A DNA stretch of 64,000 bases, from contig CM060198.1 in the NCBI GenBank assembly GCA_030549335.1, positions 38,077,853 through 38,141,852 of the forward strand. The letters are read 5' to 3'. The position numbers and the translations under genes are program-made. Below are positions 1 to 64,000 of this stretch, one piece after another; the first letter of the stretch is position 1, and the number at the start of each line of letters is the position of its first letter. This DNA comes from Pontederia crassipes. Taxonomy: Eukaryota > Streptophyta > Magnoliopsida > Commelinales > Pontederiaceae. Below the pieces are notes generated by a model. It did no database searches. It saw only the letters and a program-made list of their open reading frames with translations, and had not been told where the DNA came from.

Positions 1-22
1 ATCTTTAGAACTTTAACTCTAT

Positions 23-39
23 TTCAAACCGAAGTTGAA
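23..39. repeat. Short hairpin potential, 5-bp stem
   Basis: TTCAA (23-27) pairs with TTGAA (35-39) around a seven-base loop, ACCGAAG or ACCTAAG depending on monomer type. The stem bases are unchanged in nearly all copies. The right arm lies inside TTGAACC (35-41), which is also the exact complement of GGTTCAA at 88-94, so two alternative pairings compete. Such short stems can occur by chance. Confidence 0.5.
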
Positions 40-94
40 CCGTTACAATCAAAGATAACGCTCTTGGGGATTAGAGTCTTAGAGTTAGGTTCAA
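35..94. repeat. 7-bp inverted pair within the monomer
   Basis: TTGAACC at 35-41 and GGTTCAA at 88-94 are exact reverse complements separated by 46 bases. Both arms are kept in most copies. They are lost in the M41 type, where the right arm reads agattcaa, and in the M1 type, where it reads ggttgaa. Between the arms lies a small direct repeat, TTAGAG at 71-76 and 79-84 followed by TTAGG at 85-89. Confidence 0.5.
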
Positions 95-96
95 AG

Positions 97-109
97 CTAT
101 AAGTTATAG
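97..109. repeat. 13-bp perfect dyad in the monomer
   Basis: CTATAA-G-TTATAG is a perfect inverted repeat with six-base arms and one central base. It occurs at bases 97-109 of every monomer that carries gctataag together with agttatag. The common variants caataag (base 98), gttataag (base 97), agtgatag (base 105) and ttatgg (base 108) each break one arm pair, so dyad-intact and dyad-broken monomers alternate in set patterns along the array. Short dyads are a reported feature of several centromeric satellites; any role here is inference. Confidence 0.85.
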
Positions 110-146
110 ATACTTATTACAACCTTTGGGTGTCCTAAGAGGTGAT

Positions 147-152
147 AGATCT
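147..152. other. AGATCT site at monomer junctions (BglII)
   Basis: The junction between a monomer ending TAG and one opening ATCT makes AGATCT, first seen here. Monomers that open AGCT or GGCT lack it at that junction. The site is therefore present at most but not all junctions, and cutting would give a 148-bp ladder with double and longer steps that reflect monomer order. This is a physical landmark, not a proposed function. Confidence 0.9.
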
Positions 153-1332
153 TTAGAACTTTAACTCTATTTCAAACCGAAGTTGAACCGTTACAATCAA
201 AGATAACGCTCTTGGGGATTAGAGTCTTAGAGTTAGGTTCAAAGCTATAAGTTATAGATACTTATTACAACCTTTGGGTGTCCTAAGAGGTGATAGAGCT
301 ACAGAACTTTAACTCTATTTCAAACCGAAGTTGAACCGTTACAATCAAAGATAACGCTCTTGGGGATTAGAGTCTTAGAGTTAGGTTCAAAGCAATAAGT
401 GATAGATACTTATGACATCCTTTGGGTGTCCTAAGAGGTGATAGAGTTTCAGAACTTTAACTCTATTTCAAACCGAAGTTGAACCGTTACAATCAAATAT
501 AACGCTCTTTGGGATTAGAGTCTTAGAGATAGATTCAAAGCAATAAGTTATATATACTTATTACAACCTTTGGGTGTCCTAAGAGGTGATAGATCTTTAG
601 AACTTTAACTCTATTTCAAACCTAAGTTGAACCGTTACAATCAAAGATAACGCTCTTGGGGATTAGAGTCTTAGAGTTAGGTTCAAAGCTATAAGTTATG
701 GATACTTATTACAACCCTTGGGTGTCCTAAGAGGTGATAGATCTTTAAAACTTTAACTCTATTTCAAACCGAAGTTGAACCGTTACAATCAAAGATAACG
801 CTCTTGGGGATTAGAGTCTTAGAGTTAGGTTCAAAGCAATAAGTTATAGATACTTATTACAACTTTTGGGTGTCCTAAGAGGTGATAGATCTTTAGAACT
901 TTAACTCTATTTCAAACCGAAGTTGAACCGTTACAATCAAAGATAACGCTCTTGGGGATTAGAGTCTTAGAGTTAGGTTCAAAGCTATAAGTTATAGATA
1001 CTTATTACAACCTTTGGGTGTCCTAAGAGGTGATAGAGCTTCAGAACTTTAACTCTATTTCAAACCGAAGTTGAACCGTTACAATCAAAGATAACGCTCT
1101 TGGGGATTAGAGTCTTAGAGTTAGGTTCAAAGCTATAAGTTATAGATACTTATGACATCCTTTGGGTGTCCTAAGAGGTGATAGATCTTTAGAACTTTAA
1201 CTCTATTTCAAACCGAAGTTGAACCGTTACAATCAAAGATAACGCTCTTTGGGATTAGAGTCTTAGAGATAGATTCAAAGCAATAAGTTATAGATACTTA
1301 TGACATTCTTTGGGTGTCCTAAGAGGTGATAG

Positions 1333-2220
1333 ATCTTTAGAACTTTAACTCTATTTCAAACCTAAGTTGAACCGTTACAATCAAAGATAACGCTCTTGGG
1401 GATTAGAGTCTTAGAGTTAGGTTCAAAGCTATAAGTTATAGATACTTATGACATCCTTTGGGTGTCATAAGAGGTGATAGATCTTTAGAACTTTAACTCT
1501 ATTTCAAACCGAAGTTGAACCGTTACAATAAAAGATAACGCTCTTGGGGATTAGAGTCTTAGAGTTAGGTTCAAAGCAATAAGTTATAGATACTTATTAC
1601 AACTTTTGGGTGTCCTAAGAGGTGATAGATCTTTAGAACTTTAACTCTATTTCAAACCAAAGTTGAACCGTTACAATCAAAGATAACGCTCTTGGGGATT
1701 AGAGTCTTAGAGTTAGGTTCAAAGCTATAAGTTATAGATTCTTATGACATCCTTTGGGTGTCCTAAGAGGTGATAGATCTTTAGAACTTTAACTCTATTT
1801 CAAACCGAAGTTGAACCGTTACAATCAAAGATAACGCTCTTGGGGATTAGAGTCTTAGAGTTAGGTTCAAAGCAATAAGTTATAGATACTTATTACAACC
1901 TTTGGGTGTTCTAAGAGGTGATAGATCTTTAGAACTTTAACTCTATTTCAAACCGAAGTTGAACCGTTACAATCAAAGATAACGCTCTTGGGGATTAGAG
2001 TCTTAGAGTTAGGTTCAAAGTTATAAGTTATAGATACTTATGACATCCTTTGGGTGTCCTAAGAGGTGATAGATCTTTAGAACTTTAACTCTTTTTCAAA
2101 CCTAAGTTGAACTGTGACAATCAAAGATAACGCTCTTGGGGATTAGAGTCTTAGAGTTAGGTTCAGAGCAATAAGTTATAGATACTTATTACAACCTTTG
2201 GGTGTCCTAAGAGGTGATAG
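1333..2220. repeat. Six monomers present only in the left block copy
   Basis: Up to this point the left block aligns to the block at 24419 with a constant offset of 24,418 bp. From 2221 on the offset is 23,530 bp. The difference, 888 bp, is exactly six monomers, so this stretch is either inserted here or deleted between 25750 and 25751. The monomer before it, starting at 1185, is mixed: its left part is M41 type, but it ends atgacattcttt where its partner at 25603 ends attacaacc. That suggests the junction lies inside it. Confidence 0.85.
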
Positions 2221-3552
2221 ATCTTTAGAACTTTAACTCTATTTCAAACCGAAGTTGAACCGTTACAATCAAAGATAACGCTCTTGGGGATTAGAGTCTT
2301 AGAGTTAGGTTCAAAGCTATAAGTGATAGATACTTATTACAACCTTTGGGTGTCCTAAGAGGTGATAGAGCTTCAGAACTTTAACTCTATTTCAAACCGA
2401 AGTTGAACCGTTACAATCAAAGATAGCGCTCTTGGGGATTAGAGACTTAGAGTTAGGTTGAAAGCTATAAGTTATAGATACTTATGACATCCTTTGGGTG
2501 TCCTAAGAGGTGATAGATCTTTAGAACTTTAACTCTATTTCAAACCTAAGTTGAACCGTTACAATCAAAGATAACGCTCTTGGTGATTAGAGTCTTAGAG
2601 TTAGGTTCAAAGCAATAAGTTATAGATACTTATTACAACCTTTGGGTGTTCTAAGAGGTGATAGATCTTTAGAACTTTAACTCTATTTCAAACCGAAGTT
2701 GAACCGTTACAATCAAAGATAACGCTCTTGGGGATTAGAGTCTTAGAGTTAGGTTCAAAGCAATAAGTTATAGATACTTATTACAACCTTTGGGTGTCCT
2801 AAGAGGTGATAGATCTTTAGAACTTTAACTCTATTTCAAACCGAAGTTGAACCGTTACAATCAAAGATAACGCTCTTGGGGATTAGAGTCTTAGAGTTAG
2901 GTTCAAAGCTATAAGTTATAGATACTTATTACAACCTTTGGGTGTCCTAAGAGGTGATAGGGCTTCAGAACTTTAACTCTATTTCAAACCGAAGTTGAAC
3001 CGTTACAATCAAAGATAACGCTCTTGGGGATTAGAGTCTTAGAGTTAGGTTCAAAGCTATAAGTTATAGATACTTATTACAACCTTTGGGTGTCCTAAGA
3101 GGTGATAGAGCTTCAGAACTTTAACTCTATTTCAAACCGAAGTTGAACCGTTACAATCAAAGATAACGCTCTTGGGGATTAGAGTCTTAGAGTTAGGTTC
3201 AAAGCAATAAGTGATAGATACTTATGACATCCTTTGGGTGTCCTAAGAGGTGATAGAGCTTCAGAACTTTAACTCTATTTCAAACCGAAGTTGAACCGTT
3301 ACAATCAAAGATAACGCTCTTTGGGATTAGAGTCTTAGAGATAGATTCAAAGCAATAAGTTATATATACTTATTACAACCTTTGGGTGTCCTAAGAGGTG
3401 ATAGATCTTTAGAACTTTAACTCTATTTCAAACCGAAGTTGAACCGTTACAATCAAAGATAACGCTCTTGGGGATTAGAGTCTTAGAGTTAGGTTCAAAG
3501 CTATAAGTTATAGATACTTATTACAACCTTTGGGGGTCCTAAGAGGTGATAG

Positions 3553-6500
3553 AGCTTCAGAACTTTAACTCTATTTCAAACCGAAGTTGAACCGTTACAA
3601 TCAAAGATAACGCTCTTGGGGATTAGAGTCTTAGAGTTAGGTTGAAAGCTATAAGTTATAGATACTTATGACATCCTTTGGGTGTCCTAAGAGGTGATAG
3701 ATCTTTAGAACTTTAACTCTATTTCAAACCTAAGTTGAACCGTTACAATCAAAGATAACGCTCTTGGGGATTAGAGTCTTAGAGTTAGGTTCAAAGCAAT
3801 AAGTTATAGATACTTATTACAACCTTTGGGTGTTCTAAGAGGTGATAGATCTTTAGAACTTTAACTCTATTTCAAACCGAAGTTGAACCGTTACAATCAA
3901 CGATAACGCTCTTGGGGATTAGAGTCTTAGAGTTAGGTTCAAAGCAATAAGTTATAGATACTTATTACAACCTTTGGGTGTCCTAAGAGGTGATAGATCT
4001 TTAGAACTTTAACTCTATTTCAAACTGAAGTTGAACCGTTACAATCAAAGATAACGCTCTTGGGGATTAGAGTCTTAGAGTTAGGTTCAAAGCTATAAGT
4101 TATAGATACTTATTACAACCTTTGGGTGTCCTAAGAGGTGATAGGGCTTTAGAACTTTAACTCTATTTCAAACCGAAGTTGAACCGTTACAATCAAAGAT
4201 AACGCTCTTGGGGATTAGAGTCTTAGAGTTAGGTTCAAAGCTATAAGTTATAGATACTTATGACATCCTTTGGGTGTCCTAAGAGGTGATAGATCTTTAG
4301 AACTTTAACTCTATTTCAAACCTAAGTTGAACCGTTACAATCAAAGATAACGCTCTTGGGGATTAGAGTCTTAGAGTTAGGTTCAAAGCAATAAGTTATA
4401 GATACTTATTACAACCTTTGGGTGTTCTAAGAGGTGATAGATCTTTAGAACTTTAACTCTATTTCAAACCGAAGTTGAACCGTTACAATCAAAGATAACG
4501 CTCTTGGGGATTAGAGTCTTAGAGTTAGGTTCAAAGTTATAAGTTATAGATACTTATGACATCCTTTGGGTATCCTAAGAGGTGATAGATCTTTAGAACT
4601 TTAACTCTTTTTCAAACCTAAGTTGAACCGTTACAATCAAAGATAACGCTCTTGGGGATTAGAGTCTTAGAGTTAGGTTCAAAGCTATAAGTTATAGATA
4701 CTTATTACAACCTTTGGGTGTCCTAAGAGGTGATAGATCTTTAGAACTTTAACTCTATTTCAAACCGAAGTTGAACCGTTACAATCAAAGATAACGCTCT
4801 TGGGGATTAGAGTCTTAGAGTTAGGTTCAAAGCAATGAGTGATAGATACTTATGACATCCTTTGGGTGTCCTAAGAGGTGATAGATCTTTAGAACTTTAA
4901 CTCTATTTCAAACCGAAATTAAACCGTTACAATCAAAGATAACGCTCTTGGGGATTAGAGTCTTAGAGTTAGGTTCAAAGCTATAAGTTATAGATACTTA
5001 TTACAACCTTTGGGTGTCCTAAGAGGTGATAGAGCTTCAGAACTTCAAATCTATTTCAAACCGAAGTTGAACCGTTACAATCAAAGATAACGCTCTTGGG
5101 GATTAGAGTCTTAGAGTTAGGTTCAAAGCTATAAGTTATAGATACTTATGACATCCTTTGGGTGTCCTAAGAGGTGATAGATCTTTAGAACTTTAACTCT
5201 ATTTCAAACCTAAGTTGAACCGTTACAATCAAAGATAACGCTCTTGGGGATTAGAGTCTTAGAGTTAGGTTCAAAGCAATAAGTTATAGATACTTATTAC
5301 AACCTTTGGGTGTCCTAAGAGGTGATAGAGCTTTAGAACTTTAACTCTATTTCAAACCGAAGTTGAACCGTTACAATCAAAGATAACGCTCTTGGGGATT
5401 AGAGTCTTAGAGTTAGGTTCAAAGCTATAAGTTATAGATTCTTATGACATCCTTTGGGTGTCCTAAGAGGTGATAGATCTTTAGAACTTTAACTCTTTTT
5501 CAAACCTAAGTTGAACCGTTACAATCAAAGATAACGCTCTTGGGGATTAGAGTCTTAGAGTTAGGTTCAAAGCAATAAGTTATAGATACTTCTTACAACC
5601 TTTGGGTGTCCTAAGAGGTGATAGATCTTTAGAACTTTAACTCTATTTCAAACCGAAGTTGAACCGTTACAATCAAAGATAACGCTCTTGGGGATTAGGG
5701 TCTTAGAGTTAGGTTCAAAGCAATAAGTGATAGATACTTATGACATCCTTTGGGTGTCGTAAGAGGTGATAGAGCTTCAGAACTTTAACTCTATTACAAC
5801 CGAAGTTGAACCGTTACAATCAAAGATAACGCTCTTGGAGATTAGAGTCTTACAGTTAGGTTCAAAGCTATAAGTTATGGATACTTATTACAACCCTTGG
5901 GTGTCCTAAGAGGTGATAGATCTTTAGAACTTTAACTCTATTTCAAACCGAAGTTGAACCGTTACAATCAAAGATAACGCTCTTGGGGATTAGAGTCTTA
6001 GAGTTAGGTTCAAAGCTATAAGTTATGGATACTTATTACAACCCTTGGGTGTCCTAAGAGGTGATAGAGCTTCAGAACTTTAACTCTATTTCGAACCGAA
6101 GTTGAACCGTTACAATCAAAGATAACGCTCTTGGGGATTAGAGTCTTAGAGTTAGGTTCAAAGCTATAAGTTATAGATACTTATTACAACCTTTGGGTGT
6201 CCTAAGAGGTGATAGGGCTTCAGAACTTTAACTCTATTTCAAACCGAAGTTGAACCGTTACAATCAAAGATAACGCTCTTGGGGATTAGAGTCTTAGAGT
6301 TAGGTTCAAAGCTATAAGTTATAGATACTTATGACATCCTTTGGGTGTCCTAAGAGGTGATAGATCTTTAGAACTTTAACTCTATTTCAAACCTAAGTTG
6401 AACCGTTACAATCAAAGATAACGCTCTTGGGGATTAGAGTCTTAGAGTTAGGTTCAAAGCAATAAGTTATAGATACTTATTACAACCTTTGGGTGTCCTA

Positions 6501-9500
6501 AGAGGTGATAGATCTTTAGAACTTTAACTCTATTTCAAACCGAAGTTGAACCGTTACAATCAAAGATAACGCTCTTGGGGATTAGAGTCTTAGAGTTAGG
6601 TTCAAAGCTATAAGTTATAGATACTTATTACAACCTTTGGGTGTCCTAAGAGGTGATAGGGCTTCAGAACTTTAACTCTATTTCAAACCGAAGTTGAACC
6701 GTTACAATCAAAGATAACGCTCTTGGGGATTAGAGTCTTAGAGTTAGGTTCAAAGCTATAAGTTATAGATACTTATGACATCCTTTGGGTGTCCTAAGAG
6801 GTGATAGATCTTTAGAACTTTAACTCTATTTCAAACCTAAGTTGAACCGTTACAATCAAAGATAACGCTCTTGGGGATTAGAGTCTTAGAGTTAGGTTCA
6901 AAGCAATAAGTTATAGATACTTATTACAACCTTTGGGTGTTCTAAGAGGTGATAGATCTTTAGAACTTTAACTCTATTTCAAACCGAAGTTGAACCGTTA
7001 CAATCAAAGATAACGCTCTTGGGGATTAGAGTCTTAGAGTTAGGTTCAAAGTTATAAGTTATAGATACTTATGACATCCTTTGGGTGTCCTAAGAGGTGA
7101 TAGATCTTTAGAACTTTAACTCTTTTTCAAACCTAAGTTGAACCGTTACAATCAAAGATAACGCTCTTGGGGATTAGAGTCTTAGAGTTAGGTTCAAAGC
7201 TATAAGTTATAGATACTTATTACAACCTTTGGGTGTCCTAAGAGGTGATAGATCATTAGAACTTTAACTCTATTTCAAACCGAAGTTGAACCGTTACAAT
7301 CAAAGATAAACGCTCTTGGGGATTAGAGTCTTAGAGTTAGGTTCAAAGCAATAAGTGATAGATACTTATGACATCCTTTGGGTGTCCTAAGAGGTGATAG
7401 ATCTTTAGAACTTTAACTCTATTTCAAACCGAAGTTGAACCGTTACAATCAAAGATAACGCTCTTGGGGATTAGAGTCTTAGAGTTAGGTTCAAAGTTAT
7501 AAGTTATAGATACTTATGACATCCTTTGGGTGTCCTAAGAGGTGATAGATCTTTAGAACTTTAACTCTTTTTCAAACCTAAGTTGAACCGTTACAATCAA
7601 AGATAACGCTCTTGGGGATTAGAGTCTTAGAGTTAGGTTCAAAGCAATAAGTTATAGATACTTCTTACAACCTTTGGGTGTCCTAAGAGGTGATAGATCT
7701 TTAGAACTTTAACTCTATTTCAAACCGAAGTTGAACCGTTACAATCAAAGATAACGCTCTTGGGGATTAGAGTCTTAGAGTTAGGTTCAAAGCAATAAGT
7801 GATAGATACTTATGACATCCTTTGGGTGTCCTAAGAGGTGATAGAGCTTCAGAACTTTAACTCTATTTCAAACTGAAGTTGAACCGTTACAATCAAAGAT
7901 AACGCTCTTGGAGATTAGAGTCTTACAGTTAGGTTCAAAGCTATAAGTTATGGATACTTATTACAACCCTTGGGTGTCCTAAGAGGTGATAGATCTTTAG
8001 AACTTTAACTCTATTTCAAACCGAAGTTGAACCGTTACAATCAAAGATAACGCTCTTGGGGATTAGAGTCTTAGAGTTAGGTTCAAAGCTATAAGTTATG
8101 GATACTTATTACAACCCTTGGGTGTCCTAAGAGGTGATAGAGCTTCAGAACTTTAACTCTATTTCGAACCGAAGTTGAACCGTTACAATCAAAGATAACG
8201 CTCTTGGGGATTAGAGTCTTAGAGTTAGGTTCAAAGCAATAAGTTATAGATACTTATTACAACCTTTGGGTGTCCTAAGAGGTGATAGATCTTTAGAACT
8301 TTAACTCTATTTCAAACCGAAGTTGAACCGTTACAATCAAAGATAACGCTCTTGGGGATTAGAGTCTTAGAGTTAGGTTCAAAGCTATAAGTTATAGATA
8401 CTTATTACAACATTTGGGTGTCCTAAGAGGTGATAGAGCTTCAGAACTTTAACTCTATTTCAAACCGAAGTTGAACCGTTACAATCAAAGATAACGCTCT
8501 TGGGGATTAGAGTCTTAGAGTTAGGTTCAAAGCAATAAGTTATAGATACTTATTACAACCTTTGGGTGTCCTAAGAGGTGATAGATCTTTAGAACTTTAA
8601 CTCTTTTTCAAACCTAAGTTGAACCGTTACAATCAAAGATAACGCTCTTGGGGATTAGAGTCTTAGAGTTAGGTTCAAAGCAATAAGTTATAGATACTTC
8701 TTACAACCTTTGGGTGTCCTAAGAGGTGATAGATCTTTTGAACTTTAACTCTATTTCAAACCGAAGTTGAACCATTACAATCAAAGATAACGCTCTTGGG
8801 GATTAGAGTCTTAGAGTTAGGTTCAAAGCTATAAGTTATAGATACTTATTACAAGCTTTGGGTGTCCTAAGAGGTGACAGAGCTTCAGAACTTTAACTCT
8901 ATTTCAAACCGAAGTTGAACCGTTACAATCAAAGATAACGCTCTTGGGGATTAGAGTCTTAGAGTTAGGTTTAAAGCTAGAAGTTATAGATACTTATTAC
9001 AACCTTTGGGTGTCCTAAGAGGTGATAGATCTTTAGAACTTTAACTCTATTTCAAACCTAAGTTGAACCGTTACAATCAAAGATAACGCTCTTGGGGATT
9101 AGAGTCTTAGAGTTAGGTTCAAAGCTATAAGTTATGGATACTTATTACAACCCTTGGGTGTCCTAAGAGGTGATAGAGCTTCAGAACTTTAACTCTATTT
9201 CAAACCGAAGTTGAAACGTTACAATCAAAGATAACGCTCTTGGGGATTAGAGTCTTAGAGTTAGGTTCAAAGCAATAAGTTATAGATACTTATTACAACC
9301 TTTGGGTGTCCTAAGAGGTGATAGAGCTTCAGAACTTTAACTCTATTTCAAACCGAAGTTGAACCGTTACAATCAAAGATAACGCTCTTGGGGATTAGAG
9401 TCTTAGAGTTAGGTTCAAAGCTATAAGTTATAGATACTTATTACAACCTTTGGGTGTCCTAAGAGGTGATAGATCTTTAGAACTTTAACTCTATTTCAAA

Positions 9501-10508
9501 CCGAAGTTGAACCGTTACAATCAAAGATAACGCTCTTGGGGATTAGAGTCTTAGAGTTAGGTTCAAAGCTATAAGTTATAGATACTTATGACATCCTTTG
9601 GGTGTCCTAAGAGGTGATAGATCTTTAGAACTTTAACTCTATTTCAAACCGAAGTTGAACCGTTACAATCAAAGATAACGCTCTTGGGGATTAGAGTCTT
9701 AGAGTTAGGTTCAAAGCTATAAGTTATAGATATTTATGACATCCTTTGGGTGTCCTAAGAGGTGATAGATCTTTAGAACTTTAACTCTATTTCAAACCTA
9801 AGTTGAACCGTTACAATCAAAGATAACGCTCTTGGGGATTAGAGTCTTAGAGTTAGGTTCAAAGCTATAAGTTATAGATACTTATTACAACCTTTGGGTG
9901 TCCTAAGAGGTGATAGGGCTTCAGAACTTTAACTCTATTTCAAATCGAAGTTGAACCGTTACAATCAAAGATAACGCTCTTGGGGATTAGAGTCTTAGAG
10001 TTAGGTTCAAAGCTATAAGTTATAGATACTTATGACATCCTTTGGGTGTCCTAAGAGGTGATAGATCTTTAGAACTTTAACTCTATTTCAAACCGAAGTT
10101 GAACCGTTACAATCAAAGATAACGCTCTTGGGGATTAGAGTCTTAGAGTTAGGTTCAAAGCAATAAGTGATAGATACTTATGACATCCTTTGGGTGTCCT
10201 AAGAGGTGATAGAGCTTCAGAACTTTAACTCTATTTCAAACCGAAGTTGAACCGTTACAATCAAAGATAACGCTCTTTGGGATTAGAGTCTTAGAGATAG
10301 ATTCAAAGCAATAAGTTATATATACTTATTACAACCTTTGGGTGTCCTAAGAGGTGATAGATCTTTAGAACTTTAACTCTATTTCAAACCGAAGTTGAAC
10401 CGTTACAATCAAAGATAACGCTCTTGGGGATTAGAGTCTTAGAGTTAGGTTCAAAGCTATAAGTTATAGATACTTATTACAACCTTTGGGGGTCCTAAGA
10501 GGTGATAG
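3553..10508. repeat. U1: HOR unit, 47 monomers, 6,956 bp
   Basis: From marker to marker this is exactly 47 x 148 bp, because one 147-bp monomer (5773, with ctattacaacc) and one 149-bp monomer (7252, with agataaacg) cancel. Order: M1-M16; an extra M26-like monomer (5920); M17-M20; an M21 form ending gacatcc (6660); four monomers like M6-M9 (6808, 6956, 7104, 7252); then M22-M42. It is the fullest simple version of the unit. The other units can be derived from it by losses and block duplications, so it may be close to the ancestral order. Private marks shared only with U4 include ggctttag in M5, gggtatcc in M7, gcaatgag in M9 and ccgaaattaaacc in M10. Confidence 0.92.
8853..8858. other. AAGCTT (HindIII) landmark in M31-type monomers
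   Basis: The acaagctttg ending creates AAGCTT, which I found only ten times: 8853, 15512, 16844, 23503, 29866, 32381, 34898, 41113, 47328 and 53987. All are in M31-type monomers except 29866 and 32381, which lie in the 17-monomer duplication. The spacings (6,659; 1,332; 6,659; 6,363; 2,515; 2,517; 6,215; 6,215; 6,659 bp) read out the unit structure directly. This is a physical landmark only. Confidence 0.85.
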
Positions 10509-51900: not shown

Positions 51901-52830
51901 TAGATACTTATTACAACCTTTGGGTGTCCTAAGAGGTGATAGGGCTTCAGAACTTTAACTCTATTTCAAACCGAAGTTGAACCGTTACAATCAAAGATAA
52001 CGCTCTTGGGGATTAGAGTCTTAGAGTTAGGTTCAAAGCTATAAGTTATAGATACTTATGACATCCTTTGGGTGTCCTAAGAGGTGATAGATCTTTAGAA
52101 CTTTAACTCTATTTCAAACCTAAGTTGAACCGTTACAATCAAAGATAACGCTCTTGGGGATTAGAGTCTTAGAGTTAGGTTCAAAGCAATAAGTTATAGA
52201 TACTTATTACAACCTTTGGGTGTTCTAAGAGGTGATAGATCTTTAGAACTTTAACTCTATTTCAAACCGAAGTTGAACCGTTACAATCAAAGATAACGCT
52301 CTTGGGGATTAGAGTCTTAGAGTTAGGTTCAAAGTTATAAGTTATAGATACTTATGACATCCTTTGGGTGTCCTAAGAGGTGATAGATCTTTAGAACTTT
52401 AACTCTTTTTCAAACCTAAGTTGAACCGTTACAATCAAAGATAACGCTCTTGGGGATTAGAGTCTTAGAGTTAGGTTCAAAGCTATAAGTTATAGATACT
52501 TATTACAACCTTTGGGTGTCCTAAGAGGTGATAGATCTTTAGAACTTTAACTCTATTTCAAACCGAAGTTGAACCGTTACAATCAAAGATAACGCTCTTG
52601 GGGATTAGAGTCTTAGAGTTAGGTTCAAAGCAATAAGTGATAGATACTTATGACATCCTTTGGGTGTCCTAAGAGGTGATAGATCTTTAGAACTTTAACT
52701 CTATTTCAAACCGAAGTTGAACCGTTACAATCAAAGATAACGCTCTTGGGGATTAGAGTCTTAGAGTTAGGTTCAAAGTTATAAGTTATAGATACTTATG
52801 ACATCCTTTGGGTGTCCTAAGAGGTGATAG

Positions 52831-52978
52831 ATCTTTAGAACTTTAACTCTTTTTCAAACCTAAGTTGAACCGTTACAATCAAAGATAACGCTCTTGGGGA
52901 TTAGAGTCTTAGAGTTAGGTTCAAAGCAATAAGTGATAGATACTTATGACATCCTTTGGGTGTCCTAAGAGGTGATAG
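52831..52978. repeat. M23/M24 fusion monomer in U7
   Basis: It has the same left (ctttttc, cctaag) and right (gcaataagtgatag, gacatcc) parts as the fusions at 14356 and 22347. This ties the middle of U7 to U2/U3 and not to its neighbours U5/U6. Confidence 0.82.
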
Positions 52979-53422
52979 AGCTTCAGAACTTTAACTCTAT
53001 TTCAAACTGAAGTTGAACCGTTACAATCAAAGATAACGCTCTTGGAGATTAGAGTCTTACAGTTAGGTTCAAAGCTATAAGTTATGGATACTTATTACAA
53101 CCCTTGGGTGTCCTAAGAGGTGATAGATCTTTAGAACTTTAACTCTATTTCAAACCGAAGTTGAACCGTTACAATCAAAGATAACGCTCTTGGGGATTAG
53201 AGTCTTAGAGTTAGGTTCAAAGCTATAAGTTATGGATACTTATTACAACCCTTCGGTGTCCTAAGAGGTGATAGAGCTTCAGAACTTTAACTCTATTTCG
53301 AACCGAAGTTGAACCGTTACAATCAAAGATAACGCTCTTGGGGATTAGAGTCTTAGAGTTAGGTTCAAAGCAATAAGTTATAGATACTTATTACAACCTT
53401 TGGGTGTCCTAAGAGGTGATAG

Positions 53423-53866
53423 ATCTTTAGAACTTTAACTCTATTTCAAACCGAAGTTGAACCGTTACAATCAAAGATAACGCTCTTGGGGATTAGAGTC
53501 TTAGAGTTAGGTTCAAAGCAATAAGTGATAGATACTTATGACATCCTTTGGGTGTCCTAAGAGGTGATAGAGCTTCAGAACTTTAACTCTATTTCAAACT
53601 GAAGTTGAACCGTTACAATCAAAGATAACGCTCTTGGAGATTAGAGTCTTACAGTTAGGTTCAAAGCTATAAGTTATGGATACTTATTACAACCCTTGGG
53701 TGTCCTAAGAGGTGATAGATCTTTAGAACTTTAACTCTATTTCAAACCGAAGTTGAACCGTTACAATCAAAGATAACGCTCTTGGGGATTAGAGTCTTAG
53801 AGTTAGGTTCAAAGCTATAAGTTATGGATACTTATTACAACCCTTGGGTGTCCTAAGAGGTGATAG
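53423..53866. repeat. Three-monomer block replacement in U7
   Basis: M24, M25 and M26 types stand where M28, M29 and M30 are expected, between M27 and M31. The unit keeps its 45-monomer length. The second M26 here reads cccttgggtg, the U1/U5 form, whereas the first one in the same unit (53127) reads cccttcggtg. The inserted three therefore probably came from another unit and not from the neighbouring triplet. Confidence 0.78.
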
Positions 53867-56382
53867 ATCTTTTGAACTTTAACTCTATTTCAAACCGAAG
53901 TTGAACCATTACAATCAAAGATAACGCTCTTGGGGATTAGAGTCTTAGAGTTAGGTTCAAAGCTATAAGTTATAGATACTTATTACAAGCTTTGGGTGTC
54001 CTAAGAGGTGATAGAGCTTCAGAACTTTAACTCTATTTAAAACCGAAGTTGAACCGTTACAATCAAAGATAACGCTCTTGGGGATTAGAGTCTTAGAGTT
54101 AGGTTTAAAGCTAGAAGTTATAGATACTTATTACAACCTTTGGGTGTCCTAAGAGGTGATAGATCTTTAGAACTTTAACTCTATTTCAAACCTAAGTTGA
54201 ACCGTTACAATCAAAGATAACGCTCTTGGGGATTAGAGTCTTAGAGTTAGGTTCAAAGCTATAAGTTATGGATACTTATTACAACCCTTGGGTGTCCTAA
54301 GAGGTGATAGAGCTTCAGAACTTTAACTCTATTTCAAACCGAAGTTGAAACGTTACAATCAAAGATAACGCTCTTGGGGATTAGAGTCTTAGAGTTAGGT
54401 TCAAAGCAATAAGTTATAGATACTTATTACAACCTTTGGGTGTCCTAAGAGGTGATAGAGCTTCAGAACTTTAACTCTATTTCAAACCGAAGTTGAACCG
54501 TTACAATCAAAGATAACGCTCTTGGGGATTAGAGTCTTAGAGTTAGGTTCAAAGCTATAAGTTATAGATACTTATTACAACCTTTGGGTGTCCTAAGAGG
54601 TGATAGATCTTTAGAACTTTAACTCTATTTCAAACCGAAGTTGAACCGTTACAATCAAAGATAACGCTCTTGGGGATTAGAGTCTTAGAGTTAGGTTCAA
54701 AGCTATAAGTTATAGATACTTATGACATCCTTTGGGTGTCCTAAGAGGTGATAGATCTTTAGAACTTTAACTCTATTTCAAACCGAAGTTGAACCGTTAC
54801 AATCAAAGATAACGCTCTTGGGGATTAGAGTCTTAGAGTTAGGTTCAAAGCTATAAGTTATAGATATTTATGACATCCTTTGGGTGTCCTAAGAGGTGAT
54901 AGATCTTTAGAACTTTAACTCTATTTCAAACCTAAGTTGAACCGTTACAATCAAAGATAACGCTCTTGGGGATTAGAGTCTTAGAGTTAGGTTCAAAGCT
55001 ATAAGTTATAGATACTTATTACAACCTTTGGGTGTCCTAAGAGGTGATAGGGCTTCAGAACTTTAACTCTATTTCAAACCGAAGTTGAACCGTTACAATC
55101 AAAGATAACGCTCTTGGGGATTAGAGTCTTAGAGTTAGGTTCAAAGCTATAAGTTATAGATACTTATGACATCCTTTGGGTGTCCTAAGAGGTGATAGAT
55201 CTTTAGAACTTTAACTCTATTTCAAACCGAAGTTGAACCGTTACAATCAAAGATAACGCTCTTGGGGATTAGAGTCTTAGAGTTAGGTTCAAAGCAATAA
55301 GTGATAGATACTTATGACATCCTTTGGGTGTCCTAAGAGGTGATAGAGCTTCAGAACTTTAACTCTATTTCAAACCGAAGTTGAACCGTTACAATCAAAG
55401 ATAACGCTCTTTGGGATTAGAGTCTTAGAGATAGATTCAAAGCAATAAGTTATATATACTTATTACAACCTTTGGGTGTCCTATGAGGTGATAGATCTTT
55501 AGAACTTTAACTGTATTTCAAACCGAAGTTGAACCGTTACAATCAAAGATAACGCTCTTGGGGATTAGAGTCTTAGAGTTAGGTTCAAAGCTATAAGTTA
55601 TAGATACTTATTACAACCTTTGGGGGTCCTAAGAGGTGATAGAGCTTCAGAACTTTAACTCTATTTCAAACCGAAGTTGAACCGTTACAATCAAAGATAA
55701 CGCTCTTGGGGATTAGAGTCTTAGAGTTAGGTTGAAAGCTATAAGTTATAGATACTTATGACATCCTTTGGGTGTCCTAAGAGGTGATAGATCTTTAGAA
55801 CTTTAACTCTATTTCAAACCTAAGTTGAACCGTTACAATCAAAGATAACGCTCTTGGGGATTAGAGTCTTAGAGTTAGGTTCAAAGCAATAAGTTATAGA
55901 TACTTATTACAACCTTTGGGTGTTCTAAGAGGTGATAGATCTTTAGAACTTTAACTCTATTTCAAACCGAAGTTGAACCGTTACAATCAACGATAACGCT
56001 CTTGGGGATTAGAGTCTTAGAGTTAGGTTCAAAGCAATAAGTTATAGATACTTATTACAACCTTTGGGTGTCCTAAGAGGTGATAGATCTTTAGAACTTT
56101 AACTCTATTTCAAACCGAAGTTGAACCGTTACAATCAAAGATAACGCTCTTGGGGATTAGAGTCTTAGAGTTAGGTTCAAAGCTATAAGTTATAGATACT
56201 TATTACAACCTTTGGGTGTCCTAAGAGGTGATAGGGCTTCAGAACTTTAACTCTATTTCAAACCGAAGTTGAACCGTTACAATCAAAGATAACGCTCTTG
56301 GGGATTAGAGTCTTAGAGTTAGGTTCAAAGCTATAAGTTATAGATACTTATGACATCCTTTGGGTGTCCTAAGAGGTGATAG

Positions 56383-58601
56383 ATCTTTAGAACTTTAACT
56401 CTATATCAAACCTAAGTTGAACCGTTACAATCAAAGATAACGCTCTTGGGGATTAGAGTCTTAGAGTTAGGTTCAAAGCAATAAGTTATAGATACTTATT
56501 ACAACCTTTGGGTGTTCTAAGAGGTGATAGATCTTTAGAACTTTAACTCTATTTCAAACCGAAGTTGAACCGTTACAATCAAAGATAACGCTCTTGGGGA
56601 TTAGAGTCTTAGAGTTAGGTTCAAAGTTATAAGTTATAGATACTTATGACATCCTTTGGGTGTCCTAAGAGGTGATAGATCTTTAGAACTTTAACTCTTT
56701 TTCAAACCTAAGTTGAACCGTTACAATCAAAGATAACGCTCTTGGGGATTAGAGTCTTAGAGTTAGGTTCAAAGCTATAAGTTATAGATACTTATTACAA
56801 CCTTTGGGTGTCCTAAGAGGTGATAGATCTTTAGAACTTTAACTCTATTTCAAACCGAAGTTGAACCGTTACAATCAAAGATAACGCTCTTGGGGATTAG
56901 AGTCTTAGAGTTAGGTTCAAAGCAATAAGTGATAGATACTTATGACATCCTTTGGGTGTCCTAAGAGGTGATAGATCTTTAGAACTTTAACTCTATTTCA
57001 AACCGAAGTTAAACCGTTACAATCAAAGATAACGCTCTTGGGGATTAGAGTCTTAGAGTTAGGTTCAAAGCTATAAGTTATAGATACTTATTACAACCTT
57101 TGGGTGTCCTAAGAGGTGATAGAGCTTCAGAACTTTAAATCTATTTCAAACCGAAGTTGAACCGTTACAATCAAAGATAACGCTCTTGGGGATTAGAGTC
57201 TTAGAGTTAGGTTCAAAGCTATAAGTTATAGATACTTATGACATCCTTTGGGTGTCCTAAGAGGTGATAGATCTTTAGAACTTTAACTCTATTTCAAACC
57301 TAAGTTGAACCGTTACAATCAAAGATAACGCTCTTGGGGATTAGAGTCTTAGAGTTAGGTTCAAAGCAATAAGTTATAGATACTTATTACAACCTTTGGG
57401 TGTCCTAAGAGGTGATAGAGCTTTCGAACTTTAACTCTATTTCAAACCGAAGTTGAACCGTTACAATCAAAGATAACGCTCTTGGGGATTAGAGTCTTAG
57501 AGTTAGGTTCAAAGCTATAAGTTATAGATTCTTATGACATCCTTTGGGTGTCCTAAGAGGTGATAGATCTTTAGAACTTTAACTCTATTTCAAACCGAAG
57601 TTGAACCGTTACAATCGAAGATAACGCTCTTGGGGATTAGAGTCTTAGAGTTAGGTTCAAAGCAATAAGTTATAGATACTTCTTACAACCTTTGGGTGTC
57701 CTAAGAGGTGATAGATCTTTAGAACTTTAACTCTATTTCAAACCGAAGTTGAACCGTTACAATCAAAGATAACGCTCTTGGGGATTAGAGTCTTAGAGTT
57801 AGGTTCAAAGCAATAAGTGATAGATACTTATGACATCCTTTGGGTGTCCTAAGAGGTGATAGAGCTTCAGAACTTTAACTCTATTTCAAACTGAAGTTGA
57901 ACCGTTACAATCAAAGATAACGCTCTTGGAGATTAGAGTCTTACAGTTAGGTTCAAAGCTATAAGTTATGGATACTTATTACAACCCTTGGGTGTCCTAA
58001 GAGGTGATAGATCTTTAGAACTTTAACTCTATTTCAAACCGAAGTTGAACCGTTACAATCAAAGATAACGCTCTTGGGGATTAGAGTCTTAGAGTTAGGT
58101 TCAAAGCTATAAGTTATGGATACTTATTACAACCCTTGGGTGTCCTAAGAGGTGATAGAGCTTCAGAACTTTAACTCTATTTCGAACCGAAGTTGAACCG
58201 TTACAATCAAAGATAACGCTCTTGGGGATTAGAGTCTTAGAGTTAGGTTCAAAGCAATAAGTGATAGATACTTATGACATCCTTTGGGTGTCCTAAGAGG
58301 TGATAGATCTTTAGAACTTTAACTCTATTTCAAACCGAAGTTAAACCGTTACAATCAAAGATAACGCTCTTGGGGATTAGAGTCTTAGAGTTAGGTTCAA
58401 AGCTATAAGTTATAGATACTTATTACAACCTTTGGGTGTCCTAAGAGGTGATAGAGCTTCAGAACTTCACTCTATTTCAAACCGAAGTTGAACCGTTACA
58501 ATCAAAGATAACGCTCTTGGGGATTAGAGTCTTAGAGTTAGGTTCAAAGCTATAAGTTATAGATACTTATGACATCCTTTGGGTGTCCTAAGAGGTGATA
58601 G
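56383..58601. repeat. 15-monomer block, copy 1 (2,219 bp)
   Basis: Order: M6-M16, an M26-like monomer (58011), a tcgaacc monomer with gcaataagtgatag (58159), an M10-like monomer with gttaaacc (58307) and a 147-bp monomer with gaacttcactc (58455). Marker pairs give a 2,219-bp step: ctttcgaac 57421/59640, acaatcgaag 57611/59830/62049, agaacttcac 58461/60680. The first monomer has a private ctatatc. Confidence 0.9.
58159..58306. repeat. M27/M9-type chimeric monomer in the 15-mer block
   Basis: The left half has agcttcag and tcgaacc (M17/M27 type). The right half has gcaataagtgatag and gacatcc (M9/M24 type). An M10-like monomer (gttaaacc) follows, as M10 follows M9 elsewhere. It marks the jump from M27 back to M9-M10 that closes the 15-monomer block. 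Copies recur in the second and third blocks (60378 and 62597). Confidence 0.78.
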
Positions 58602-60820
58602 ATCTTTAGAACTTTAACTCTATTTCAAACCTAAGTTGAACCGTTACAATCAAAGATAACGCTCTTGGGGATTAGAGTCTTAGAGTTAGGTTCAAAGCAA
58701 TAAGTTATAGATACTTATTACAACCTTTGGGTGTTCTAAGAGGTGATAGATCTTTAGAACTTTAACTCTATTTCAAACCGAAGTTGAACCGTTACAATCA
58801 AAGATAACGCTCTTGGGGATTAGAGTCTTAGAGTTAGGTTCAAAGTTATAAGTTATAGATACTTATGACATCCTTTGGGTGTCCTAAGAGGTGATAGATC
58901 TTTAGAACTTTAACTCTTTTTCAAACCTAAGTTGAACCGTTACAATCAAAGATAACGCTCTTGGGGATTAGAGTCTTAGAGTTAGGTTCAAAGCTATAAG
59001 TTATAGATACTTATTACAACCTTTGGGTGTCCTAAGAGGTGATAGATCTTTAGAACTTTAACTCTATTTCAAACCGAAGTTGAACCGTTACAATCAAAGA
59101 TAACGCTCTTGGGGATTAGAGTCTTAGAGTTAGGTTCAAAGCAATAAGTGATAGATACTTATGACATCCTTTGGGTGTCCTAAGAGGTGATAGATCTTTA
59201 GAACTTTAACTCTATTTCAAACCGAAGTTAAACCGTTACAATCAAAGATAACGCTCTTGGGGATTAGAGTCTTAGAGTTAGGTTCAAAGCTATAAGTTAT
59301 AGATACTTATTACAACCTTTGGGTGTCCTAAGAGGTGATAGAGCTTCAGAACTTTAAATCTATTTCAAACCGAAGTTGAACCGTTACAATCAAAGATAAC
59401 GCTCTTGGGGATTAGAGTCTTAGAGTTAGGTTCAAAGCTATAAGTTATAGATACTTATGACATCCTTTGGGTGTCCTAAGAGGTGATAGATCTTTAGAAC
59501 TTTAACTCTATTTCAAACCTAAGTTGAACCGTTACAATCAAAGATAACGCTCTTGGGGATTAGAGTCTTAGAGTTAGGTTCAAAGCAATAAGTTATAGAT
59601 ACTTATTACAACCTTTGGGTGTCCTAAGAGGTGATAGAGCTTTCGAACTTTAACTCTATTTCAAACCGAAGTTGAACCGTTACAATCAAAGATAACGCTC
59701 TTGGGGATTAGAGTCTTAGAGTTAGGTTCAAAGCTATAAGTTATAGATTCTTATGACATCCTTTGGGTGTCCTAAGAGGTGATAGATCTTTAGAACTTTA
59801 ACTCTATTTCAAACCGAAGTTGAACCGTTACAATCGAAGATAACGCTCTTGGGGATTAGAGTCTTAGAGTTAGGTTCAAAGCAATAAGTTATAGATACTT
59901 CTTACAACCTTTGGGTGTCCTAAGAGGTGATAGATCTTTAGAACTTTAACTCTATTTCAAACCGAAGTTGAACCGTTACAATCAAAGATAACGCTCTTGG
60001 GGATTAGAGTCTTAGAGTTAGGTTCAAAGCAATAAGTGATAGATACTTATGACATCCTTTGGGTGTCCTAAGAGGTGATAGAGCTTCAGAACTTTAACTC
60101 TATTTCAAACTGAAGTTGAACCGTTACAATCAAAGATAACGCTCTTGGAGATTAGAGTCTTACAGTTAGGTTCAAAGCTATAAGTTATGGATACTTATTA
60201 CAACCCTTGGGTGTCCTAAGAGGTGATAGATCTTTAGAACTTTAACTCTATTTCAAACCGAAGTTGAACCGTTACAATCAAAGATAACGCTCTTGGGGAT
60301 TAGAGTCTTAGAGTTAGGTTCAAAGCTATAAGTTATGGATACTTATTACAACCCTTGGGTGTCCTAAGAGGTGATAGAGCTTCAGAACTTTAACTCTATT
60401 TCGAACCGAAGTTGAACCGTTACAATCAAAGATAACGCTCTTGGGGATTAGAGTCTTAGAGTTAGGTTCAAAGCAATAAGTGATAGATACTTATGACATC
60501 CTTTGGGTGTCCTAAGAGGTGATAGATCTTTAGAACTTTAACTCTATTTCAAACCGAAGTTAAACCGTTACAATCAAAGATAACGCTCTTGGGGATTAGA
60601 GTCTTAGAGTTAGGTTCAAAGCTATAAGTTATAGATACTTATTACAACCTTTGGGTGTCCTAAGAGGTGATAGAGCTTCAGAACTTCACTCTATTTCAAA
60701 CCGAAGTTGAACCGTTACAATCAAAGATAACGCTCTTGGGGATTAGAGTCTTAGAGTTAGGTTCAAAGCTATAAGTTATAGATACTTATGACATCCTTTG
60801 GGTGTCCTAAGAGGTGATAG
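58602..60820. repeat. 15-monomer block, copy 2 (2,219 bp)
   Basis: It is nearly identical to copy 1, sharing ctttcgaac in M13 (59640) and the 147-bp closing monomer with gaacttcactc (60674). It opens with ctatttc and not the ctatatc of copy 1. No other difference was noticed by eye. Confidence 0.9.
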
Positions 60821-63040
60821 ATCTTTAGAACTTTAACTCTATTTCAAACCTAAGTTGAACCGTTACAATCAAAGATAACGCTCTTGGGGATTAGAGTCTT
60901 AGAGTTAGGTTCAAAGCAATAAGTTATAGATACTTATTACAACCTTTGGGTGTTCTAAGAGGTGATAGATCTTTAGAACTTTAACTCTATTTCAAACCGA
61001 AGTTGAACCGTTGCAATCAAAGATAACGCTCTTGGGGATTAGAGTCTTAGAGTTAGGTTCAAAGTTATAAGTTATAGATACTTATGACATCCTTTGGGTG
61101 TCCTAAGAGGTGATAGATCTTTAGAACTTTAACTCTTTTTCAAACCTAAGTTGAACCGTTACAATCAAAGATAACGCTCTTGGGGATTAGAGTCTTAGAG
61201 TTAGGTTCAAAGCTATAAGTTATAGATACTTATTACAACCTTTGGGTGTCCTAAGAGGTGATAGATCTTTAGAACTTTAACTCCATTTCAAACCGAAGTT
61301 GAACCGTTACAATCAAAGATAACGCTCTTGGGGATTAGAGTCTTAGAGTTAGGTTCAAAGCAATAAGTGATAGATACTTATGACATCCTTTGGGTGTCCT
61401 AAGAGGTGATAGATCTTTAGAACTTTAACTCTATTTCAAACCGAAGTTAAACCGTTACAATCAAAGATAACGCTCTTGGGGATTAGAGTCTTAGAGTTAG
61501 GTTCAAAGCTATAAGTTATAGATACTTATTACAACCTTTGGGTGTCCTAAGAGGTGATAGAGCTTCAGAACTTTAAATCTATTTCAAACCGAAGTTGAAC
61601 CGTTACAATCAAAGATAACGCTCTTGGGGATTAGAGTCTTAGAGTTAGGTTCAAAGCTATAAGTTATAGATACTTATGACATCCTTTGGGTGTCCTAAGA
61701 GGTGATAGATCTTTAGAACTTTAACTCTATTTCAAACCTAAGTTGAACCGTTACAATCAAAGATAACGCTCTTGGGGATTAGAGTCTTAGAGTTAGGTTC
61801 AAAGCAATAAGTTATAGATACTTATTACAACCTTTGGGTGTCCTAAGAGGTGATAGAGCTTTAGAACTTTAACTCTATTTCAAACCGAAGTTGAACCGTT
61901 ACAATCAAAGATAACGCTCTTGGGGATTAGAGTCTTAGAGTTAGGTTCAAAGCTATAAGTTATAGATTCTTATGACATCCTTTGGGTGTCCTAAGAGGTG
62001 ATAGATCTTTAGAACTTTAACTCTATTTCAAACCGAAGTTGAACCGTTACAATCGAAGATAACGCTCTTGGGGATTAGAGTCTTAGAGTTAGGTTCAAAG
62101 CAATAAGTTATAGATACTTCTTACAACCTTTGGGTGTCCTAAGAGGTGATAGATCTTTAGAACTTTAACTCTATTTCAAACCGAAGTTGAACCGTTACAA
62201 TCAAAGATAACGCTCTTGGGGATTAGAGTCTTAGAGTTAGGTTCAAAGCAATAAGTGATAGATACTTATGACATCCTTTGGGTGTCCTAAGAGGTGATAG
62301 AGCTTCAGAACTTTAACTCTATTTCAAACTGAAGTTGAACCGTTACAATCAAAGATAACGCTCTTGGAGATTAGAGTCTTACAGTTAGGTTCAAAGCTAA
62401 AAGTTATGGATACTTATTACAACCCTTGGGTGTCCTAAGAGGTGATAGATCTTTAGAACTTTAACTCTATTTCAAACCGAAGTTGAACCGTTACAATCAA
62501 AGATAACGCTCTTGGGGATTAGAGTCTTAGAGTTAGGTTCAAAGCTATAAGTTATGGATACTTATTACAACCCTTGGGTGTCCTAAGAGGTGATAGAGCT
62601 TCAGAACTTTAACTCTATTTCGAACCGAAGTTGAACCGTTACAATCAAAGATAACGCTCTTGGGGATTAGAGTCTTAGAGTTAGGTTCAAAGCAATAAGT
62701 GATAGATACTTATGACATCCTTTGGGTGTCCTAAGAGGTGATAGATCTTTAGAACTTTAACTCTATTTCAAACCGAAGTTAAACCGTTACAATCAAAGAT
62801 AACGCTCTTGGGGATTAGAGTCTTAGAGTTAGGTTCAAAGCTATAAGTTATAGATACTTATTACAACCTTTGGGTGTCCTAAGAGGTGATAGAGCTTCAG
62901 AACTTTAACTCTATTTCAAACCGAAGTTGAACCGTTACAATCAAAGATAACGCTCTTGGGGATTAGAGTCTTAGAGTTAGGTTCAAAGCTATAAGTTATA
63001 GATACTTATGACATCCTTTGGGTGTCCTAAGAGGTGATAG
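60821..63040. repeat. 15-monomer block, copy 3 (2,220 bp)
   Basis: The order is that of copies 1 and 2, but with more differences: ttgcaatc near 61012, ctccattt near 61282, M13 with ctttagaac (61857), gctaaaag near 62397, and a full-length closing monomer (62893) with actttaactct. It keeps atcgaag in M14 (62049). The closing monomer leads into M2 (63041), unlike the earlier copies, whose closing monomer leads back to M6. Confidence 0.9.
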
Positions 63041-64000
63041 ATCTTTAGAACTTTAACTCTATTTCAAACCTAAGTTGAACCGTTACAATCAAAGATAACG
63101 CTCTTGGGGATTAGAGTCTTAGAGTTAGGTTCAAAGCAATAAGTTATAGATACTTATTACAACCTTTGGGTGTTCTAAGAGGTGATAGATCTTTAGAACT
63201 TTAACTCTATTTCAAACCGAAGTTGAACCGTTACAATCAACGATAACGCTCTTGGGGATTAGAGTCTTAGAGTTAGGTTCAAAGCAATAAGTTATAGATA
63301 CTTATTACAACCTTTGGGTGTCCTAAGAGGTGATAGATCTTTAGAACTTTAACTCTATTTCAAACCGAAGTTGAACCGTTACAATCAAAGATAACGCTCT
63401 TGGGGATTAGAGTCTTAGAGTTAGGTTCAAAGCTATAAGTTATAGATACTTATTACAACCTTTGGGTGTCCTAAGAGGTGATAGGGCTTCAGAACTTTAA
63501 CTCTATTTCAAACCGAAGTTGAACCGTTACAATCAAAGATAACGCTCTTGGGGATTAGAGTCTTAGAGTTAGGTTCAAAGCTATAAGTTATAGATACTTA
63601 TGACATCCTTTGGGTGTCCTAAGAGGTGATAGATCTTTAGAACTTTAACTCTATTTCAAACCTAAGTTGAACCGTTACAATCAAAGATAACGCTCTTGGG
63701 GATTAGAGTCTTAGAGTTAGGTTCAAAGCAATAAGTTATAGATACTTATTACAACCTTTGGGTGTTCTAAGAGGTGATAGATCTTTAGAACTTTAACTCT
63801 ATTTCAAACCGAAGTTGAACCGTTACAATCAAAGATAACGCTCTTGGGGATTAGAGTCTTAGAGTTAGGTTCAAAGTTATAAGTTATAGATACTTATGAC
63901 ATCCTTTGGGTGTCCTAAGAGGTGATAGATCTTTAGAACTTTAACTCTTTTTCAAACCTAAGTTGAACCGTTACAATCAAAGATAACGCTCTTGGGGATT
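63041..64000. repeat. U9: partial HOR unit, M2 to part of M8
   Basis: M2 (148 bp, tgttctaag), M3 (caacgataac), M4, M5 (ggcttcag), M6, M7 (gttataag) and 72 bp of M8 (ctttttc) follow in normal order to the window end. The expected M1 with gttgaaag is missing; the monomer before (62893) reads gttcaaag and looks like a join between the M11-like closing monomer of the 15-mer block and M1. Confidence 0.88.

Follow-up and report, generated by a model that had tools for sequence, protein, structure and literature searches.

How does a satellite whose monomers are so alike come to carry an order that returns only every few dozen monomers, and what kind of exchange would preserve that order while letting the repeat length vary? 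The window considered here (the whole stretch analysed, positions 1-64,000) raises both questions. It is one head-to-tail satellite array, 432 full 148-bp monomers and a 72-bp tail on one strand. An earlier note on this DNA described it as a very long nested higher-order repeat (HOR). In our reading the array is very probably a eukaryotic satellite stretch, a cascading superHOR that grew by in-register homologous copying between array segments.

The array and its monomers

Monomers were obtained by cutting at GGTGATAG, one 296-bp piece being divided in two. Tandem Repeats Finder reports a single array over 1-64,000 with a period of 148 and 432.5 copies, and additionally two short overlapping rows of period 74. 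Is the monomer then built from two 74-bp halves? This is unsupported: the best internal lag is 74, and its 38% identity is matched by 119 of 1000 shuffles. Monomer length stays within 147-149 bp, with no partial copies and only 12 of 432 departing from 148 bp (ten of 147, two of 149). The 432 full monomers comprise 94 distinct sequences and differ on average at 5.5 positions in 148 (3.7%, i.e. 96.3% identity); 20.3% of pairs exceed 5% divergence and the maximum is 15 differences in alignment, about 10%. The consensus has 35% GC.

Searches for other features or for relatives were negative within their scope. The 64-kb window holds no tRNA genes, no Rfam family reached the gathering threshold in 10,000 of its 64,000 bases, and bases 1-1500 had no match among the phage and plasmid sequences searched. 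A 26-base monomer piece has no exact match in the viral and genomic contig collections searched, and six pieces of 13 to 16 bases are absent from the literature text searched. Literature on 148-bp satellites yielded names, with no matching sequence among the matches listed.

Units of 42 to 64 monomers

GGGGG occurs eight times in the window (3532, 10488, 18479, 27062, 36533, 42748, 48963 and 55622), and the monomers carrying it are spaced 47, 54, 58, 64, 42, 42 and 45 monomers apart, which gives units of 6.2-9.5 kb (Table 1) and agrees exactly with the spacings of the earlier note. The five-G marker is a variant form of a single monomer and marks phase; any role for it would be putative. Seven units are complete, while the window opens with 3,552 bp and ends with 8.4 kb that are partial or otherwise constructed. 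Because the seven complete units show six lengths (only two are equal), no canonical unit is visible in the window.

Table 1. Features of the window; U, unit; p, partial or open unit
Feature	Position	Strand	Basis
Satellite array, 148-bp monomer, 432 full + 72 bp	1-64000	+	period scan, monomer cutting
U0p, partial unit, 24 monomers, resembles U3 tail	1-3552	+	18/24 aligned to U3, 15 identical
U1, 47 monomers, alpha-lineage head	3553-10508	+	marker spacing, unit alignment
U2, 54 monomers, beta-lineage head, internal 9-mer duplication	10509-18499	+	marker spacing, unit alignment
9-monomer tandem duplication in U2, monomers 102-110 / 111-119	15096-17759	+	8/9 identical
U3, 58 monomers, beta head, tail in common with U0p	18500-27082	+	marker spacing, unit alignment
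U4, 64 monomers, alpha head, internal 17-mer duplication	27083-36553	+	marker spacing, unit alignment
17-monomer tandem duplication in U4, monomers 188-204 / 205-221	27823-32852	+	14/17 identical
U5, 42 monomers, beta head	36554-42768	+	marker spacing, unit alignment
U6, 42 monomers	42769-48983	+	3 differences from U5 over 6.2 kb
U7, 45 monomers, beta head	48984-55642	+	marker spacing, unit alignment
U8p, last open unit, 56 full monomers, without closing five-G monomer	55643-63928	+	monomer cutting
15-monomer block, three tandem copies in U8p, monomers 382-396 / 397-411 / 412-426	56531-63188	+	
Large duplication copy 1, firm part, U0p + U1, monomers 0-70	1-10508	+	lag scan, alignments
Large duplication copy 2, firm part, U3 tail + U4, monomers 165-246	24419-36553	+	lag scan, alignments
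Proposed 24.4-kb super-unit copy 1, monomers 0-164	1-24418	+	alignment; unproven past 10,508
Proposed super-unit copy 2, monomers 165-375	24419-55642	+	153/165 copy-1 monomers aligned

Is the order of the monomers also repeated? Stretches of identical monomers in matching order reach 31, whereas none of 200 shuffles gave more than 4; 33 maximal runs hold at least eight, where a block-match definition of HORs takes at least three in order. Identical pairs make up 2.3% of all monomer pairs; at lags 42, 54 and 260 the share rises to 20.5%, 13.8% and 29.7%. All four diagonals that the earlier note had predicted are present, with longest exact runs of 3,011 bp at 6,215 bp, 1,039 at 6,659, 1,800 at 7,991 and 2,665 at 23,530; neither an absence of such lines nor a random order of monomer types, which that note had named as evidence against itself, was found. 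Over all scanned lags, 741 near-multiples of 148, the longest exact run is 4,722 bp at 12,430. Multiples of 148 lose phase at 1-bp indels, so the scan's median of 5.0 makes no fair background, and the lags 26046, 30487, 32262 and 38476-38478, which were out of phase, are left out.

Pairwise alignments of U1-U7 span 38-48 monomers at 99.41-99.95% identity, so that unit copies are more alike over their aligned parts than monomers are (96.3%). Controls with a shuffled unit also reach a mean of 99.2% over few aligned monomers; identity figures are inflated by free gap placement, and the weight therefore lies on aligned length and score. Here the separation is clear: U1/U4, U3/U4 and U5/U6 align over 47, 45 and 42 monomers, against at most 18, 21 and 16, with negative scores, when the second unit is shuffled (20 shuffles per pair). 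Monomer types recur within units: all units were written as type strings with clusters cut at 4.5 differences, which departs from the published type rule. The nested 9-, 15- and 17-monomer blocks proposed earlier are also there, in U2, U8p and U4 respectively. Copies 1 and 2 of the 15-monomer block are identical in 15 of 15 monomers; between copies 2 and 3 there are 6 base differences.

Two head classes and a larger duplication

Comparing the first 15 monomers of eight units separates two classes of unit head. Seven substitutions are common to U1 and U4 alone, a 1-bp deletion is common to U2, U3, U5, U6 and U7, and one substitution is common to U5, U6 and U7; these patterns are mutually compatible. 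From U1 to U7 the classes read alpha, beta, beta, alpha, beta, beta, beta. The split is confined to the heads: none of the columns in the closing 17 monomers of six units unites U1 and U4 alone.

Is there a tier above the unit? The claimed duplication of more than 10 kb exists, at an offset of 159-165 monomers (about 24 kb), and is firm over the first 10.5 kb. Beyond that point the aligned order is compatible with a 24-kb super-unit, an extension that is unproven because the units are interchangeable. U1U2, taken as a pair, gives its best alignments with the four pairs starting with U4 (358-370, against 259-330 for the other 16). Among 120 orders of the copy-2 pieces the natural order ties for third (588.5, against 590.0 for the best), and the six best all start with the U3 tail and U4. 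The large duplication may be a regular third tier rather than a single event.

How did the array grow?

Two junctions map within monomers. For the one-monomer loss of U2 relative to U1 the junction falls in monomer 97, at columns 31-105 and with 5 mismatches; for the 9-monomer duplication in U2, taking U4 as the parent, it falls in monomer 110, at columns 79-113 and with 2 mismatches. Other junctions are less clear: that of the 17-monomer duplication with U1 as parent is not clean (22 mismatches), two ranges tie for the loss of a monomer at monomer 86, and self comparison of the 15-monomer block gives 0 mismatches over a 2,361-column range and so is uninformative on its junction. All monomers being 147-149 bp and two junctions lying within hybrid monomers, rearrangement was in register and driven by homology.

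A copying model describes U1-U7 as 3, 2, 5, 7, 1, 1 and 4 segments from other units, with 6, 5, 7, 13, 3, 3 and 5 mismatches, where shuffling the panel order (20 shuffles each) gives means of 25-42 segments; U8p takes 14 segments and U0p 7, where the null means are 33.8 and 18.0. The costs of the model were our own choice, at a single setting. Growth would have proceeded in whole monomers, gained or lost at each event, by repeated in-register copying through unequal exchange, gene conversion or break-induced replication. The exact repair route may be any of these, as crossover, conversion and break-induced replication are indistinguishable here.

Could the units instead derive from rolling-circle amplification of extrachromosomal circles, each holding at least one unit, that homologous recombination put back into the array? 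The adjacent, near-identical U5 and U6 and the three tandem copies of the 15-monomer block would fit a circle template, but a single circle should leave runs of identical units, not six lengths in seven complete units and two head classes, and we consider this origin unlikely. Somewhat less likely still is an assembly artefact, in which the assembler duplicated, dropped or stitched units in register, making the unit number and the large duplication partly false. Errors in tandem arrays are likewise in register, only 3 positions separate U5 from U6 over 6.2 kb, and beta units are almost interchangeable; however, the units bear distinguishing marks in a compatible nested pattern (the seven alpha-specific substitutions, 1-bp indels and block indels), and shared derived changes would not arise from an error.

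At the smallest scale, neighbours are more unlike than expected. In each of the eight units no more than 23 of 2000 permutations attain the difference observed between adjacent monomers, although the units are copies of one another, so this is nearer one or two observations; only 3 of 431 adjacent pairs are identical, where shuffles average 9.9. In-order runs of up to 26 monomers (mean 13.8 over 200 simulations) also come from a first-order Markov chain fitted to the array's own monomer string, but this chain learned the repeat order itself and is therefore not treated as a no-structure null. A rival in which single monomers slipped in the ordinary way, no higher order existed and the unit spacing was a by-product of one rare marker is most improbable: the similarity of the monomers and the runs of the Markov chain would suit it, but unit-scale order far above shuffles and the unlikeness of neighbours contradict it.

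Comparison with known higher-order repeats

This array has company in ape centromeres, where its kind has already been described; the closest cases in the parts of the literature covered here are the orangutan 45-84mers and a human 52mer. The unit size is, as the earlier note held, extreme beside most human alpha satellite, but it has a precedent in these orangutan repeats (PMC12428378). Orangutan cascading alpha-satellite superHORs include a 58mer and a 45mer on the Y and 84-, 54-, 53-, 51- and 45mers on other chromosomes (PMC12428378). They share with our array tens of monomers per unit, types recurring in the unit and copies less than 1% apart. The orangutan 58mer has a dominant canonical copy (46 of 67 copies, 0.25% divergence; PMC12428378), as expected of a cascading HOR, whereas no such copy appears among the lengths of 47, 54, 58, 64, 42, 42 and 45 within the 64-kb window, where two of seven complete units are equal in length.

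Very long units also occur in the orangutan chromosome 13 59mer (PMC11276891), which likewise repeats monomer types, and the human chromosome 21 52mer (PMC12385485), with copies 0.1-0.2% apart. Their monomers diverge within the unit by 22.4% and 17.7%, respectively, in contrast to 3.7% on average here. In alpha-satellite HORs, monomers within a unit are 20-40% different and those below 5% count as one type (PMC11276891). Our satellite falls outside that divergence, and its monomer is 148 bp rather than about 171 bp, a distinction judged by length.

HOR blocks outside alpha satellite, as here, are reported for switchgrass (PMC4053949), where HORs are multimers more alike than monomers, Arabidopsis CEN178 (PMC10199239), where they are matching block pairs, and Brachypodium (PMC10910784). 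In switchgrass, the named units contain between four and six monomers, and in some of them one monomer is truncated (PMC4053949), against 42-64 here. Monomer length is shared with the coast redwood centromeric repeat (148 bp, PMC8728005), whose sequence is no more similar than shuffled controls (239 of 500 shuffles score as high), with EulaSat2 of larch, also 148 bp but with 44% GC against 35% (PMC8312256), and, going by its name alone, with water hyacinth 'CEN148' (PMC10938897). VaccSat1 of Vaccinium (138-148 bp) and a 148-bp rice chromosome 10 repeat are of similar length.

A putative centromeric role

Is this a centromere? The satellite is probably centromeric or pericentromeric and able to carry CENH3 chromatin. 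The CENP-B box has the motif NTTCGNNNNANNCGGGN. It has no match on either strand of the 64-kb window, and its best match in the consensus, with 3 mismatches, is reached by 785 of 1000 shuffles.

What the array may tell us

In the published sources covered, comparable unit lengths were found only in apes; here they occur in a low-divergence 148-bp satellite. With the 5% rule, HOR finders would probably have difficulty in resolving an array of this kind (79.7% of its monomer pairs lie below 5%). Thanks to marker indels and to junctions that can be placed within monomers, the size and position of exchanges would become readable from sequence. It is conceivable, although we doubt it, that in this non-alpha satellite exchange works mainly on the 6-9 kb units and the 24-kb super-unit and hardly on single monomers, with unit length drifting freely (42-64), unit order kept and neighbours staying unlike. 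If this were true, recombination here would require long homology, and would filter out one-monomer slippage.

Organization of the array

A single satellite array fills the window on one strand, with a period of 148 and 432.5 copies according to Tandem Repeats Finder. Cutting at GGTGATAG yields 432 full monomers, with 72 bp left over as a tail. The full monomers comprise 94 distinct sequences, with a mean pairwise difference of 5.47 in 148 (3.7%) and a mean identity to the consensus of 97.6%. How are they arranged? GGGGG occurs at eight sites whose host monomers are spaced 47, 54, 58, 64, 42, 42 and 45 apart, values which the earlier note had read from the sequence and which came out the same after cutting. 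With a five-G monomer closing each unit, there are seven complete higher-order repeat (HOR) units, U1–U7, between a partial first unit (U0p) and a last open unit (U8p).

Is this order more than chance? Identical monomers make up 2.3% of pairs overall, and 29.7% at a lag of 260 monomers, 23.9% at 206, 21.1% at 176, 20.5% at 42 and 13.8% at 54. In order, identical monomers extend over as many as 31 positions (235–265 against 319–349, counted from 0), compared with at most 4 in 200 shuffles of monomer order; a first-order Markov chain trained on the monomer string, a control which has itself learned the repeat order, gives runs of up to 26 (mean 13.8). The four diagonals of the earlier reading, at 6,215, 6,659, 7,991 and 23,530 bp, are present, with exact runs of 3,011, 1,039, 1,800 and 2,665 bp, respectively. 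Adjacent monomers are more different than permuted ones in all eight units tested (observed value reached by 0 to 23 of 2000 permutations), which, being copies of each other, count as scarcely more than a single observation. Of 431 adjacent pairs, 3 are identical, where shuffles average 9.9 and 10 of 2000 shuffles go as low. This excess difference argues against slippage of one monomer at a time as the chief process.

Complete units (21 pairs) are 99.41% (U3/U4) to 99.95% (U5/U6, 39 of 42 monomers identical) identical where aligned, and the lowest value among pairs involving partial units is 99.10% (U4/U8p), percentages which by themselves would mislead, as poorly matching monomers can be skipped in the alignment. 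Shuffled-order controls aligned by the same method reach about 99.2%, but with a mean of 9–12 monomers aligned and negative scores, against 42–47 monomers and scores of 108–204 for the three unit pairs tested. Units differ by whole-monomer blocks: the 9-, 17- and 15-monomer blocks noted earlier are found as additions in U2 and U4 and as a threefold block in U8p, respectively. The tail of U3 is unlike the ends of the other complete units and is common to U0p.

Coordinates of units and distinguishing features (window positions)
Feature	Positions	Remark
U0p	1–3552	shares U3 tail
U1	3553–10508	
U2	10509–18499	
U3	18500–27082	
U3 tail	24419–27082	
U4	27083–36553	
U5	36554–42768	
U6	42769–48983	
U7	48984–55642	
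U8p	55643–63928	
1-bp deletion	10657, 18648, 36702, 42917, 49132	in G run; second monomer of U2, U3, U5, U6, U7
147-bp monomers	5773, 29303, 31818	matching places in U1 and U4 only; also U4's internal duplicate
149-bp monomers	7252, 33297	matching places in U1 and U4 only
Identical last 14 monomers	16428–18499, 34482–36553	U2 and U4

A larger duplication

When monomers 0–164 are aligned in order with 165–375, 153 of 165 find a partner, 125 of them an identical one, at 99.84% identity; the gaps are 6, 17, 1, 2, 33, 2 and 2 monomers long, and 6 and 1 at the end. Ten shuffles of the second block align at most 46. As a stricter control, the second block was divided into U3 tail, U4, U5, U6 and U7, and these five pieces were aligned in each of their 120 possible arrangements. 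The natural one scores 588.5, tied third below a top score of 590.0, and all six top-scoring arrangements begin with U3 tail, U4. When U1U2 is aligned with all 20 ordered pairs from U3–U7, the four starting with U4 score 358.5–370.0 and the other 16 259.5–329.5, the second partner being left undecided (U4U3 370.0, U4U7 368.5, U4U5 360.5, U4U6 358.5). Therefore, of the duplication of more than 10 kb placed above the units by the earlier note, the copying of U0p–U1 to U3 tail–U4 (10.5 kb, offset 159–165 monomers) is firm, while the data agree with, but do not prove, its extension to a complete 24.4-kb super-unit. A regular third tier, from two copies, is a proposal.

Heads and tails

Over their first 15 monomers, eight units (U1–U7, U8p) vary at 20 columns, which form nine mutually compatible patterns. 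Seven substitutions are common to U1 and U4 only, one to U5, U6 and U7, and U8p has five private differences; five units share the G-run deletion, for which recurrence or sequencing error may be an alternative source. The two classes of head run alpha, beta, beta, alpha, beta, beta, beta along the array. This split does not reach the ends of the units: over the final 17 monomers of six of them (U1, U2, U4–U7), no column is common to U1 and U4 alone. In the same ungapped comparison U7 has 22 private columns and U2 has 12, which we read as mostly due to block shifts. U2 and U4 end identically despite their different head classes, and therefore exchange mixed heads and tails between classes.

Origin and comparison with known arrays

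All 432 monomers are 147–149 bp long, and random breakpoints would nearly always leave partial monomers; duplications and losses thus appear to have taken place in monomer register. Two junctions are placed inside hybrid monomers (monomer 97, columns 31–105; monomer 110, columns 79–113). Assembling each unit from in-register pieces of the others takes 1–7 pieces with 3–13 mismatches for U1–U7, 14 with 14 for U8p and seven with nine for U0p, against means of 25–42, 33.8 and 18.0 pieces with shuffled panel order; this copying model permits in-register jumps only, and register is tested by the monomer lengths. An assembly error, though unlikely, could account for part of the unit number and of the larger duplication.

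Units of 42–64 monomers fall within the range of long HORs in orangutan and human. In the literature examined, the longest human unit reported is a 52mer (PMC12385485), though its authors elsewhere name a 34mer; that second paper reports a 58mer on the orangutan Y, and 84-, 54-, 53-, 51- and 45mers (PMC12428378), and another an orangutan 59mer (PMC11276891). Unlike these, the present array has a 148-bp monomer, low divergence between monomers (3.7%, where the published rule wants 20–40%; PMC11276891), no canonical unit length in the window, and a larger duplication. Neither this satellite nor a superHOR this long outside apes is among the literature matches listed (titles and abstract starts, subscription journals sparsely covered), which is weak evidence of absence. 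For human arrays, RAD52- and PIF1-dependent break-induced replication has been implicated in array change (PMC11034957), and break-induced replication could be a route here too. Judging from the type of array, its location would be centromeric.
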